Assembly: GCA_017522795.1 (NCBI GenBank)
Contig: JAFWXZ010000052.1
Location: forward strand, 1 to 51,199
Length of the DNA stretch: 51,199 nucleotides
DNA from: Clostridia bacterium
GTDB lineage: Bacteria; Bacillota; Clostridia; Oscillospirales; CAG-272
Direction of reading: 5' to 3'
Shown: positions 16,754-30,922 of the stretch, piece after piece
How the letters are laid out: the number at the start of each line of letters is the position of its first letter
Numbering within the stretch: the first letter of the stretch is position 1
Notes under the pieces: model-generated
What the model was told of the DNA's origin: nothing
What the model saw: only the letters and a program-made list of their open reading frames with translations
Databases searched by the model: none
Made by a program: the position numbers and the translations under genes

Positions 16754-18108
16754 GTTTTATTAACGATAGCTTTATGCTCAAAAACGAGCCCGCGAAGAAG
16801 CTTTATGCAATGGTAAAGGATCTTCCCATCATTGACTACCATTGACATCTTTCTCCAAAGCAGATAGCAGAGAACTATCAGTTCAGAAATGCCTTTGATC
16901 TTTTCCTTGGCGGTGACCATTACAAGTGGCGTCAGATTAGAACTAACGGTGTTCCCGAGGAGTATATTACAGGAAATGCTGACGAGTACGAGAAATTCAA
17001 GATGTTTGCGGCGACTCTTCCTCGTCTTATTGGCAATCCTCTTTATCATTGGACTCACCTTGAACTTAAAAGATATTTCGACATTGACGAAACTCTTAAC
17101 GAGGAGTCCTGCGAGCGCATCTGGAATAAGGTAAACGAGTGCCTTGCAAAGCCCGAATATCGCGCTCAGGAGCTTATTCGTCGCTCTAACGTTGAGATCA
17201 TCTGCACCACCGACGATCCCGTTGATACACTTGAGTATCACGCAGCTCTTCGTAGCTTCTCTACAAAGGTTCTTCCTACCTTCCGTCCCGATAAGGCTGT
17301 TGAGATCGGCAAGGAGACCTTCGTTCCTTATATCGAGTCTACAGGCGTTAAGTCCTACGAGGAGCTTATCGCTTGGATAAAGGCTCGCATCGCATACTTC
17401 AACGAGTATGGCTGCCGTCTTTCTGACCACGCTCTCGAGTACGTTCCCTTCGCGGTTGGCGATCCCAAGGCTGCTTTTGATAAGCGTATGGCAGGTGAGG
17501 AGCTTACTAAGGAGGAGATCGATTCATTCAAGACCGCAATGCTTCTTGCGTGCGCTGAGGAGTACGTAAAGTACGATTGGGCTATGCAGCTTCACATCGG
17601 TGCGCTTCGTAATAATAACAAGAAGATGTATGAGAAGCTTGGCCCCGATACAGGCTTTGATTCTATCAACGATCTTTGCATCGCAGAGGATCTGGGCGCA
17701 TTTATGAGCCATCTTGAATGCGCTGATGCGCTTCCCAAAACTATTCTTTATACACTTAACCCCAAGGATAATTATGTTCTGGGAACTATGCTTGGTTGCT
17801 TCCAGGGAGCTGGCGTAGCAGGCAAGATTCAGTTCGGCTCTGGCTGGTGGTTCAATGATCAGCGTGACGGTATGGAGGCGCAGATGCAGGCTCTTGCCAA
17901 CCTTGGCACACTCTCCGCTTTCGTTGGTATGCTTACCGACAGCCGCTCCTTCGTTTCCTATCCTCGCCATGAGTACTTTAGACGCATTATGTGTAATCTT
18001 ATTGGTAAGTGGGTAGCTGAGGGCGAGTATCCCGAGGACTACAAGGCTCTTGAGAGCATTGTAACAGGAATCGCATACTATAACGCAAAGAAATACTTCA
18101 AGTTCTAA
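16750..18108 (+). CDS. uxaC: Uronate (glucuronate/galacturonate) isomerase UxaC with an in-frame TGA at codon 32
   Basis: Isomerises D-glucuronate to D-fructuronate and D-galacturonate to D-tagaturonate; an amidohydrolase-fold enzyme. From ATG 16750 the frame runs MSFINDSFML...LPIIDYH, then TGA (16843-16845), then HLSPKQIAENYQFRN and on without interruption to a TAA at 18106-18108 (452 codons). Downstream landmarks include DHYKWRQIRTNG, GNPLYHWTHLEL, TTDDP, HIGALRNNN and MLTDSRSF. The TGA falls between the two histidines of the N-terminal HxH metal motif; in E. coli UxaC that residue is, as I recall, cysteine. This fits selenocysteine, but a nonsense mutation or base error is equally a single change. 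A restart at ATG 17002 would lose the metal site. Confidence 0.88.
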
Positions 18109-18160: not shown

Positions 18161-18189
18161 TTGACAAACAGGGAAGTATATGCTATAAT
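18161..18189 (+). promoter_or_regulatory. Consensus promoter of tRNA-Leu
   Basis: Perfect TTGACA (18161-18166) and TATAAT (18184-18189) with a 17-bp spacer, ending 11 bp before the mature tRNA 5' end. Confidence 0.92.
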
Positions 18190-18200
18190 ATCAAATGTTC

Positions 18201-18284
18201 GCGGGAGTGGCGGAATCGGCAGACGCGCACGTTTGAGGGGCGTGTATCTTTGATGTACGGGTTCAAGTCCCGTTTCCCGCACCA
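18201..18284 (+). tRNA. tRNA-Leu(GAG) with encoded CCA
   Basis: Acceptor GCGGGAG pairs with TTCCCGC (one G-U), followed by discriminator A and CCA. The D-arm starts TGGCGGAATCGG. The anticodon stem CACGT/GCGTG encloses loop TTGAGGG, anticodon GAG, reading CUU/CUC leucine codons. A long class II variable arm and T-arm CGGGTTCAAGTCCCG follow. Its last 12 bases recur at the 3' ends of two downstream RNAs and its 3' end is partly duplicated near 20299. Confidence 0.96.
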
Positions 18285-18286
18285 AC

Positions 18287-18322
18287 AAAAAAGAGGCTAA
18301 CCAAAAGGTTGGTCTCTTTTTT
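18287..18322 (+). terminator. Terminator after tRNA-Leu
   Basis: A 16-bp stem including two wobble pairs closes an AAAA loop (18303-18306) and ends in six T; the A-run on the left arm makes it potentially bidirectional. Confidence 0.85.
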
Positions 18323-18327
18323 GTTGA

Positions 18328-18419
18328 GCGGGAACGGGACAGACCTCAGCTACCGCTTCGGTCTTCAGGCTAAAAACTCTTATCAAGAGTTTTATTAACG
18401 CCTGACATTTCCCGCACCA
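18328..18419 (+). ncRNA. tRNA-like structured RNA, copy A
   Basis: 92 nt beginning GCGGGAA and ending TTCCCGC-A-CCA: a 7-bp acceptor-like stem with discriminator and CCA, matching the neighbouring tRNA-Leu ends. The interior is not a tRNA: there is no T-arm or anticodon arm. Instead it shows hairpin P2 (AGACC/GGTCT, a TC/TC internal loop, then AGC/GCT) and hairpin P3 (CAGGC/GCCTG, then AAAACTCTT/AAGAGTTTT with an ATC loop). Copy B has the same layout with compensating base changes in several stems, which argues for a conserved RNA fold. It has its own terminator. The function is unknown to me. A small inverted-repeat mobile element is the main alternative. Confidence 0.6.
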
Positions 18420-18421
18420 GG

Positions 18422-18457
18422 ATAAAGACCAGGAGAAATTCTGGTCTTTATTTTTTT
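18422..18457 (+). terminator. Terminator after copy A
   Basis: ATAAAGACCAG (18422-18432) pairs with CTGGTCTTTAT (18441-18451); inner G-U and A-U pairs leave a GAAA tetraloop, followed by a run of T. The terminator after copy B has the same tetraloop with different stem bases. Confidence 0.85.
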
Positions 18458-18506
18458 GTTTTGAGAGACATATATGTATATCCTAAATCCTCCCAGTCTT
18501 TATCCT

Positions 18507-18600
18507 GGGGGAAAAGGGACAGACCTCAAGGCAGGCTTTCGGTCTTCGCTCTAAAAACAGTTATTAACTGTTTTCTTAACGAGCGACATTTCCCGCACCA
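18507..18600 (+). ncRNA. tRNA-like structured RNA, copy B
   Basis: A second unit of 94 nt with the same order as copy A: GGGGGAAA pairs with TTTCCCGC (one mismatch), then A-CCA. P2 is AGACC/GGTCT with the same TC/TC internal loop and apical AAG/CTT in place of AGC/GCT. P3 is CGCTC/GAGCG in place of CAGGC/GCCTG, then AAAACAGTT/AACTGTTTT in place of AAAACTCTT/AAGAGTTTT. Single-stranded parts (GGGACAGACCTC, TAAAAAC, TTAACG, GACATTTCCCGCACCA) are nearly identical between copies. Weak -35/-10-like sequences lie upstream at about 18463-18490; no strong promoter is seen. Confidence 0.6.
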
Positions 18601-18605
18601 AACAG

Positions 18606-18644
18606 AAAAAATACGAACCTTGAGAAATCGAGGTTCGTATTTTT
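18606..18644 (+). terminator. Terminator after copy B
   Basis: A long stem containing ATACGAACCT/AGGTTCGTAT closes a GAAA tetraloop. One T-G pair is a wobble only in plus-strand RNA, supporting plus-strand transcription. TTTTTCC follows. Confidence 0.8.
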
Positions 18645-18697
18645 CCTTTACAAGAGATTATTTTGGTATTCAAATTGCTAGATAAAAACTAATTTAA

Positions 18698-18759: not shown

Positions 18760-20169
18760 TTATTTTTTAGAAACTTTTTGGTTAATTAATTCAAAGATGT
18801 TTTTATCGTTTTTGCTTTTGTGAAGAGTAAATTTTCCTATAGATGTATGTAAAACTATTTTTTTGTTGCATTCTACTTCAGTGATATCCTCATAACCTAT
18901 ATTGAAACCAGTGTTGTATCCTCGATATTTCACTCCGTTTTCGTATATCTCAATACATTTATGATCAGGGTTACCCGAGATTTTGTTTCTCAACATAGCA
19001 ACAAAACAAAAAATTAATAACACTAACGATGTAAACATCGGTATGCCAAGTCCAAAAATAAAATATAACGTCCATTCCATTTGTGGATTTAAGAGTTGTA
19101 TTATTAAAGCCAAAACATTGTAAAATCCAAAAATAGGAGTTAATATCTTGAAGATAAATAATAATTGTTGCAACTTGCCATACTCTTGAGAATATATCAA
19201 CTTACCATAATCGTATTCGTATTCTTCAAAAAAGTCATCAAATGGATGGTAGTCAAAAACGAAGCCTTGTTGCTCACATTTTTCTTTGAATATTGCAACG
19301 TTTGGATCAGGCTTTTCATATGGTCCTATATACTGACGAAAACTATACACAATATCTTTATTGAATATAAAGCCTCTCTGCATTGTTTCATCGTTTTGCA
19401 AATATCCTAAAACGTTTCTTTCGGCAAAATCAAGAATATCGTTATTGACTTTATTTATCTTTATTTCCTCTTCGTCATATTTAATGGTTAATTCTTGATT
19501 GTCTAGTTCGTAATCAAATGTTTTTAATGGTATTCGTTTTTCAAACAATGGTTTGAATTGCATTTCTTTAGCTTTTAGCACACTTTCTTTGTTATGACTC
19601 ATAGGGCTTAACAAAAAAGAAACTATGCCATCATTATCGATGTCAAAATAACAATGAAAGAATGTATATCCAATGTGTAATTCGTTTTCAATAACTCCTT
19701 TACATCTTAAAATAGCGAGCGAACCCCACGATGTATCAAAAAGAATTTCAAGTGTATCATTTTTTTCTTGCATTGCTAAAATATAACCATCGTGAAAGGA
19801 ACCGGTATTAAAATCTAATGCCTCGAGATCCGATTTAGAAGTTATTGTTGTATACTCTTTAGGTATAATTTGCGATAAAACCTCTTGAGCTTCCTGTAGC
19901 ATTTCAGGAGTATATTTTTTGTGCTTTATTGTTTTGAAAATATTTCTATCGTTCCAATATGACTTAAGTTTATCTTCGTTTATAGAAAAATTATCAGTAT
20001 TATAATCCATAAAAAGAATATTGTAACGAGTGCCTTGGAAAATATGTAGAACTATTAATTGTGAAAAAGAACTATCAAAAACAACAGCTTTACAGTTGTT
20101 TCTTTTTATAGAAACAGCAAAAACAGGCGAATAATAAACACTGTTGTTATGCATTATTTTAGCAAGCAT
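18760..20169 (-). CDS. Orphan membrane protein with SFHDG-containing N-terminal region and PH-like C terminus
   Basis: 469 residues; I do not recognise the family. The first 330 residues are hydrophilic, with a SFHDG segment at 124-128. Two membrane helices lie at about 335-360 and 367-393. The last 70 residues (CIEIYENGVKYRGYNTGF...YEDITEVECNKKIVLHT) look like a bacterial PH-type beta domain facing the cytoplasm. The start has a near-perfect TAAGGAGG seven bases upstream and a promoter at 20208-20236. Base composition is visibly more AT-rich and codon use differs from flanking core genes. It sits alone between tRNA-Leu and a partial tRNA copy, so it was probably acquired. No toxin or immunity motif could be established. 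Confidence 0.8.
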   Translation of the reverse strand: MLAKIMHNNSVYYSPVFAVSIKRNNCKAVVFDSSFSQLIVLHIFQGTRYNILFMDYNTDNFSINEDKLKSYWNDRNIFKTIKHKKYTPEMLQEAQEVLSQIIPKEYTTITSKSDLEALDFNTGSFHDGYILAMQEKNDTLEILFDTSWGSLAILRCKGVIENELHIGYTFFHCYFDIDNDGIVSFLLSPMSHNKESVLKAKEMQFKPLFEKRIPLKTFDYELDNQELTIKYDEEEIKINKVNNDILDFAERNVLGYLQNDETMQRGFIFNKDIVYSFRQYIGPYEKPDPNVAIFKEKCEQQGFVFDYHPFDDFFEEYEYDYGKLIYSQEYGKLQQLLFIFKILTPIFGFYNVLALIIQLLNPQMEWTLYFIFGLGIPMFTSLVLLIFCFVAMLRNKISGNPDHKCIEIYENGVKYRGYNTGFNIGYEDITEVECNKKIVLHTSIGKFTLHKSKNDKNIFELINQKVSKK

Positions 20170-30778: not shown

Positions 30779-30799
30779 GCTATAGAAAATAAAATAATG

Positions 30800-30922
30800 C
30801 TTATCAAGAGTGGTGGAGGGACTGGCCCTGTGAAACCCGGCAACCTGTTTTTTCAAGGTGCTAAATCCCGATAGATGAGTTATGCTCTAAAGCTCGGGAG
30901 GAATGCCAACTCCCGAGCTTTT
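30800..30922 (+). promoter_or_regulatory. SAM-I (S-box) riboswitch with terminator, controlling metK
   Basis: The aptamer runs from CTTATCAAGAG through GGTGGAGGGACTGGCCC, GAAACCCGGCAACC and AAGGTGCTAAATCC to GATAGATGAG (30800-30879); P1 is CTTATC/GATGAG. The expression platform is a 12-bp terminator stem, AAAGCTCGGGAG (30889-30900) with CTCCCGAGCTTT (30910-30921). High SAM would favour termination and lower expression of SAM synthetase. Confidence 0.95.

Follow-up and report, generated by a model that had tools for sequence, protein, structure and literature searches.

Candidate mobile cassettes in tandem behind a tRNA-Leu(GAG) gene of a Clostridia bacterium and their likeness to the tRNA-linked repeats of Escherichia coli

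The window, a stretch of 51,199 nucleotides from a gut bacterium of the Clostridia (contig JAFWXZ010000052.1), carries two related units of folded DNA, A (18328-18419) and B (18507-18600), in tandem behind its tRNA-Leu(GAG) gene. They are best explained, with a probability of roughly 0.6, as two non-autonomous mobile cassettes of the tRNA-linked-repeat (TLR) kind. Units of this type share one architecture and occur in tandem arrays, their ends copy the end of the tRNA at the same locus, and related cores are found at different tRNA genes. In other families a similar hairpin occurs in both orientations, and the conservation of the stems is strand-symmetric.

Results

Organization of the tRNA-Leu(GAG) locus

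The single tRNA gene of the window, tRNA-Leu(GAG), was located by ARAGORN and Rfam at 18201-18284 on the + strand, to which all features described in this paragraph belong. It is preceded by a promoter at 18161-18189 (TTGACA, 17 bp spacer, TATAAT; 12/12 matches), which was the sole strong promoter-like site of the stretch in the promoter scan; none was found inside unit A or B, and the other promoter-like match (18050-18079) lies upstream. The last 12 bases of the gene (18273-18284, TTTCCCGCACCA) constitute the copied end, X. Directly 3' of the CCA there is an 18-bp terminator-like hairpin (18285-18324) with a T-run within its 3' arm, followed by X' of unit A (18328-18340). X' takes up the first 13 bases of the unit, in which the 3' arm of the tRNA (T-stem and acceptor 3' strand) recurs in inverted form but for one missing base (GCGGGAACGGGAC, to be compared with GTCCCGTTTCCCGC after reverse complementation). 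Hairpin 1 (18341-18364, AGACC-TC-AGC..GCT-TC-GGTCT) and hairpin 2 (18366-18404, CAGGC-TA-AAAACTC..GAGTTTT-ATTAAC-GCCTG) form the core, and X, which repeats the tRNA 3' end directly (18408-18419), closes module A (18285-18419). Module B (18420-18600) opens with a GAAA-loop terminator (18420-18454) identified by both the fold and the terminator scan, and contains a second, alternative arm (18490-18505, CTCCCAGTCTTTATCC) complementary to 18420-18435. It continues with X' (18507-18520), a less perfect inverted copy of the tRNA 3' arm than that in A, with hairpin 1 (18521-18545) and hairpin 2 (18547-18585), both placed by the fold and the covariation alignment, and is closed by its own direct copy X (18589-18600). 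Folding revealed a further GAAA-loop terminator-like hairpin after B (18606-18645). Each module reads terminator-like hairpin, inverted tRNA end X', two-hairpin core and direct tRNA end X, and from the tRNA onwards the array runs X, hairpin, X', core, X, hairpin, X', core, X and a last hairpin.

The terminator scan scored only the hairpin after A and not those after the tRNA and after B, in which the T-runs sit within extended stems. The tRNA 3' arm, the first hairpin and X' folded together as one long hairpin (-54.7 kcal/mol, z -13), so that X' has two possible pairing partners, the X of the tRNA and the one that closes its own cassette. In the minimum-energy fold, the preceding arm and X were the partners of the alternative arm (18490-18505) and of X' in unit B. 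Rfam contained no family for the unit cores, and permissive scores added, besides the tRNA, only matches below the gathering scores. Elsewhere in the window, Rfam identified a SAM riboswitch aptamer (30798-30881, + strand, 69.1 bits); a 469-aa open reading frame without Pfam match lies directly after the modules (18760-20169, - strand).

An earlier note on this DNA had described A and B as tRNA-like RNAs that share a fold with paired stem changes, and both the positions of the units and this description were confirmed. Its statement that the T and anticodon arms are missing also held, as ARAGORN and Rfam found nothing in the stretch of the units other than the tRNA-Leu and the fold lacks both arms. 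The mimicry of the tRNA acceptor that it reported is perfect in A but imperfect in B, with the 12 terminal bases of the tRNA closing both units, and the terminator that it assigned to each unit is present as a GAAA hairpin after both but was scored only after A. The note had overlooked that each unit begins, at its 5' end, with the acceptor and T-stem strand of the tRNA in inverted form, and that the module is larger than the unit.

Fold and covariation of the units

Folded as RNA, unit A reached -34.9 kcal/mol compared to -17.6 ± 3.1 kcal/mol for shuffled sequence (0 of 200 shuffles as good), and unit B reached -27.5 kcal/mol, with 1 of 200 shuffles as good. The units also beat shuffled sequence when folded as DNA, unit A alike on both strands. 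Between A and B the stems differ by paired changes (CAGGC/GCCTG against CGCTC/GAGCG, CTCTT/AAGAG against CAGTT/AACTG, and AGC/GCT against AAG/CTT within the TC/TC loop). Covariation was measured on 17 distinct full units from nine genomes of the genus, giving 27 pairs and 459 cells. Paired cells amounted to 91.3% (shuffled 78.0 ± 1.1; 0 of 500 shuffles as high), cells changed on both sides numbered 62 compared to 20.3 ± 3.4 (0 of 500), and the covariation score was 0.378 compared to 0.143 ± 0.015 (0 of 500) and to 0.108 for the best slid alignment. The number of pairs with a change on both sides (11 compared to 10.1; 193 of 500) and that of further pair types (23 compared to 27.3; 495 of 500) were not above those of the shuffles. 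The covariation statistics proposed in the earlier note thus came out positive on three measures but not on these two. Together with the homologues that carry the same helices, these findings support a selected fold, as the note had claimed.

Relatives of the units within the family

Classes of elements (1, 2, 3 and so on) were assigned by eye, A and B belonging to class 1. A DNA search of 70 genomes of the genus and of fetched stretches yielded the 17 full units, from which a covariance model was built. A search with such a model had been proposed in the earlier note, and it found homologues in other genera of the family: the model matched 13 of 395 family genomes, seven in the genus of the window and six across four other genera. 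One of these six (L138) had an E value of 0.0097 and no tRNA, was treated as chance and was excluded from the comparison of X with the tRNA given below. Carriers of class 1 in the genus are 13 genomes (G000, the genome of the window, and G005, G012, G022, G025, G034, G037, G039, G048, G051, G052, G062 and G069). An exact pattern searched in 84,980 species genomes returned nine stretches from five Clostridia/Oscillospiraceae metagenome-assembled genomes (MAGs), of which three have names referring to deer or yak gut, and there were no matches to the class-1 pattern in viral contigs. MAG contigs tend to break within repeats. Class-1 matches numbered one to four per locus. In the other genera one or two units stand behind tRNA-Leu(GAG) at six of the loci examined (L134-L137, L143 and L145), and at two loci (L133 and L148) the stretch covered held no tRNA.

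Correspondence of the copied end with the local tRNA

Among the 39 class-1 matches that remain of 40 when L138 is left out, 29 have an upstream tRNA, always a tRNA-Leu, and ten have none in the stretch covered. The first 9 of the 12 nt of X are those of the unit's own tRNA in 27 of the 29 units, and all 12 agree in A and B. When the tRNAs were shuffled, a mean of 7.9 units had a matching X and none of 10,000 shuffles was as high as 27, tandem units in this count not being independent of each other. The earlier note had proposed looking for further copies at other tRNA genes, and at tRNA-Leu(CAG) such units were found, ending in the CAG version of X (L049 and L152). The core of unit B is 91% identical to those of two G048 units, in which X differs.

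The arrays also differ at one orthologous site. At the uxaC-tRNA-Leu site, in the four genomes with a readable downstream stretch (a fifth, G022, is cut there), G000 has two class-1 units, G039 two others, and G052 and G012 one each; in G052 two cassettes with an unrelated core precede the class-1 cassette behind the one tRNA. In the genome of the window, with 27 tRNA matches, several other tRNA genes show a like order downstream, with a hairpin, an inverted end, a different core and then their own end copied. Across 89 tRNA loci, a sample biased by how the loci were chosen, a direct copy was present at 43, an inverted one at 40 and the two together at 31 (p < 0.02 compared to the ends of tRNAs for other amino acids). 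In a less biased sample, 36 tRNA-Leu(GAG) loci of the genus whose downstream sequence extends over 250 nt or more, 14 had a direct copy, four a strict inverted copy and six class 1; the other 22, with no direct copy within 300 nt, count against the cassette reading.

A flank like that after B was found directly 3' of the CCA at four tRNA-Leu loci without a class-1 unit (L089, L100, L101 and L115) and at one tRNA-Ser locus (L174). Since this flank recurs at other tRNA genes, it is only suggestive as an empty site, and L100 and the others were rejected as clean ones. Elements of class 2 were found in at least 18 instances, 10 of 18 having a 13-69 nt direct repeat between the right flank and the left sequence. 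One of them (L017) stands behind what reads as the end of an rpsU-like gene, which recurs identically over 69 nt on the far side of the element. At two loci (L040 and L045) a second repeat type (CTCGCT..CGGCTCGGTCAC..GCCGCT..GCTAC) is nested between the two hairpins of a class-2 element.

A similar hairpin 2 across Clostridia

In the order, the class-1 model matched 15 of 394 genomes, five of them in the genus of the window; outside the family the matches were weak and mostly partial (E 5e-5 to 8e-3 per genome). In the class, the pattern GCTAAAAAC-N9-16-GTTTTCTTAACGC matched 16 of 391 genomes, and the reversed pattern, used as a control, had no match in the same 391. Twelve stretches from the order and 22 places from the class gave 39 distinct sites. 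Thirty of these, at 23 loci, lie at most 700 nt behind a tRNA or tmRNA gene; the hosts are tRNA genes for different amino acids and tmRNA (the latter identified by Rfam), and the surroundings again read hairpin, X', core, X. Nine sites had no tRNA or tmRNA in reach, one of them (L256) being behind what reads as an rpsU-like gene end. At the 30 sites, all of other families, hairpin 2 was antisense to the RNA gene in 27 cases and sense in three. Partial similarity suggests that class 1 is linked to this class-wide hairpin; partial model matches, and an exact pattern that misses the window's own units, weigh against the cassette reading at this point.

Candidate enzymes and neighbouring frames

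Reverse transcriptase (RVT_1) was found in 11 of 70 genus genomes and in none of the 13 class-1 carriers, and Y1 transposase exceeded the cut-off in 15 of 70 and in four of the 13 carriers (G005, G012, G022 and G051), not including G000; the genomes, that of the window among them, are incomplete. Neither enzyme was consistently found in the carriers, and neither was taken as the driver; a tRNA-primed retroelement was set aside for want of a reverse transcriptase in these 13 incomplete genomes. Behind other tRNA-Leu(GAG) genes, three loci (L069, L074 and L102) hold arrays of short, different hairpins followed by an open reading frame, which is 23S_rRNA_IVP (PF05635) in L069 and alike by eye in L074. 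L069 has a short partial X'; L074 and L102 have no clear inverted or second direct tRNA end, and such arrays were rejected as an autonomous form of the cassette.

Base pairing, orientation and alternative explanations

The units might instead give rise to a putative RNA, as proposed for rrA, rrB and rrF of E. coli, which we consider rather unlikely. The strong fold with its paired changes agrees with this explanation, and wherever the locus includes a tRNA (29 units) the core lies in its sense, as an RNA gene would; in the family of the window this uniform orientation also counts against a mobile cassette. The units are further flanked by terminators on both sides, an arrangement also seen in E. 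coli rrnB, whose T1 has a reported efficiency of 87% (PMC8144298). Against an RNA stand the antisense position of the similar hairpin 2 at 27 of 30 sites of other families, the lack of an own promoter in the units, their detection in 13 of 395 family genomes, and the seven of 27 units with a matching X that do not end in CCA.

The balance of mismatched pairs bears on the same question. In the class-1 core, 831 cells comprised 767 Watson-Crick, 15 G-T, 14 A-C and 35 other pairs (40 rows in an alignment fitted to the covariance model, including the probably chance match L138), and the X'/X stem of the class-1 rows had 13 G-T and 21 A-C. Helices 2, 4 and 5 of the 17 genus units alone had 2 G-T and 4 A-C. 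In comparison, 98 tRNAs from the loci examined had 85 G-T and 6 A-C in their acceptor and T stems (Fisher p 1.9e-6 against the class-1 core), showing that the core is without the G-U bias of tRNA stems. Selection of the fold as RNA would be expected to favour G-U on the strand concerned, and the absence of such an excess speaks against selection on the RNA strand. Together with the mostly antisense hairpin 2, it argues against a plain small RNA cotranscribed with the tRNA and for a mobile DNA cassette. The earlier note had inferred either a small-RNA class exploiting tRNA end processing or a tRNA-targeting mobile element or MITE. The former is partly, if weakly, supported; as the sole reading it is weakened by the orientation and pair statistics, and both units sit behind terminator-like hairpins with the tRNA promoter as the only strong one. 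The mobile element fits better and is the best supported, given the CAG-end cores at tRNA-Leu(CAG), the differing arrays at the uxaC site and the two orientations of hairpin 2. A read-through RNA of the kind reported for rrA, rrB and rrF might nonetheless be made.

Passive repeats, generated by tandem duplication and kept matched in X, X' and the hairpins by template-switch (quasi-palindrome) correction with no movement of their own, are quite improbable. Such correction would give the strand-symmetric stem changes observed, the tRNA end, hairpin and X' do form a long near-perfect palindrome, and G037, also of the genus of the window, has four units in tandem that include near-identical copies. 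The unpaired motifs are conserved as well, however, and the similar hairpin 2 occurs class-wide behind tRNAs for different amino acids and behind tmRNA, both of which would require transfer between unrelated loci.

tRNA and tmRNA 3' ends are usual sites of integrases, and the copied ends could represent attL and attR of a tyrosine or serine recombinase element that lost its middle; in G022 an open frame (L013, 1-345) reads across GCACCA and ends within the hairpin of a class-1 module. This frame, which may resemble the end of a large serine recombinase, had no Pfam match and only weak PHROG matches, and the assignment was not confirmed. Remnants of an integrative element are very improbable, the short stretch between the copies being conserved and folded, unlike random remains.

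Discussion

Under the mobile cassette reading, each cassette sits exactly behind the CCA end of a tRNA gene and would bring its own terminator, with which the tRNA would still end correctly. The cassette probably moves, or moved, as DNA, its hairpins serving as the recognition structure, an enzyme probably acting in trans, and X' directing or recording insertion at the CCA end; any RNA from the units would come from read-through. We infer the guiding role of X' from its double pairing and from its tracking of the target. Against this reading, no transposition event, circle or moving enzyme was seen, and arrays can also grow by ordinary unequal recombination. In a wider form, a Clostridia-wide DNA family would work like the TLRs of E. 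coli, with pairing of arm and target at the 3' end of a stable RNA gene directing insertion at the CCA end by an undescribed enzyme; this we hold to be clearly unlikely. Likening X' to a retroviral primer-binding site may serve as an idea only.

IS200/IS605 transposons and REP/PATE elements also place hairpins in short non-autonomous DNA, and an arm of the element base-pairs with the cleavage site, guide sequences fulfilling this role in IS200/IS605. The pairing of X' with X may be likened to that of guide and cleavage site, and the hairpins, the short non-autonomous DNA and the arm-target pairing are common to both; in contrast, the Clostridial arm is at least 12 nt long and matches the local tRNA. 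Arrays with Gut-1 RNA and 23S intervening-sequence proteins are likewise rich in hairpins and share some of the tRNA genes behind which they stand, and Rfam found Gut-1 matches beside modules, but their sequence is different and they have no clear X' and X.

The closest counterpart is found in E. coli, where TLRs have been known since 1978, most without known function; they are described as having a 3' end identical over 18-19 bp to that of the upstream tRNA or rRNA and occurring in one to five copies per locus, rrB as lying between two terminators, and rrA, rrB and rrF as having modest CsrA effects (PMC8144298). The Clostridial units likewise stand directly behind a tRNA gene, end in a copy of its 3' end (12 nt compared to 18-19 bp) and number one to four per locus in class 1. 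Their core is not homologous to those of E. coli, homology not being part of the definition given in PMC8144298, and they differ in the terminator-like hairpin that precedes each unit. In K-12, direct copies of RNA gene ends were present at the tyrT-tyrV, arg and rrnB loci, and the class-1 model had no match in eight E. coli loci. Visual inspection also suggested an inverted arm in the tyrT-tyrV repeats (GGGGAAGGAT / ATCCTTCCCC). The number of shuffles as good, of 300, was 2 for tyrV, 8 for tyrT, 9 for argV and 13 for argY, and 81, 213 and 88 for argQ, argZ and rrfB, respectively, and several tandem tRNA genes without repeats also reached 5-11; given these scores, the inverted arm is not established for E. 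coli. Our literature searches for such elements outside E. coli found none. The Clostridial units fall under the definition of a TLR, the end they copy being shorter and their core unrelated. Found around such a different core, in either orientation and at many RNA genes of Clostridia, the TLR architecture would be general and no longer a curiosity of one group, and the target-matching inverted arm and the missing G-U pairs are testable hints at DNA cassettes that insert at tRNA ends.
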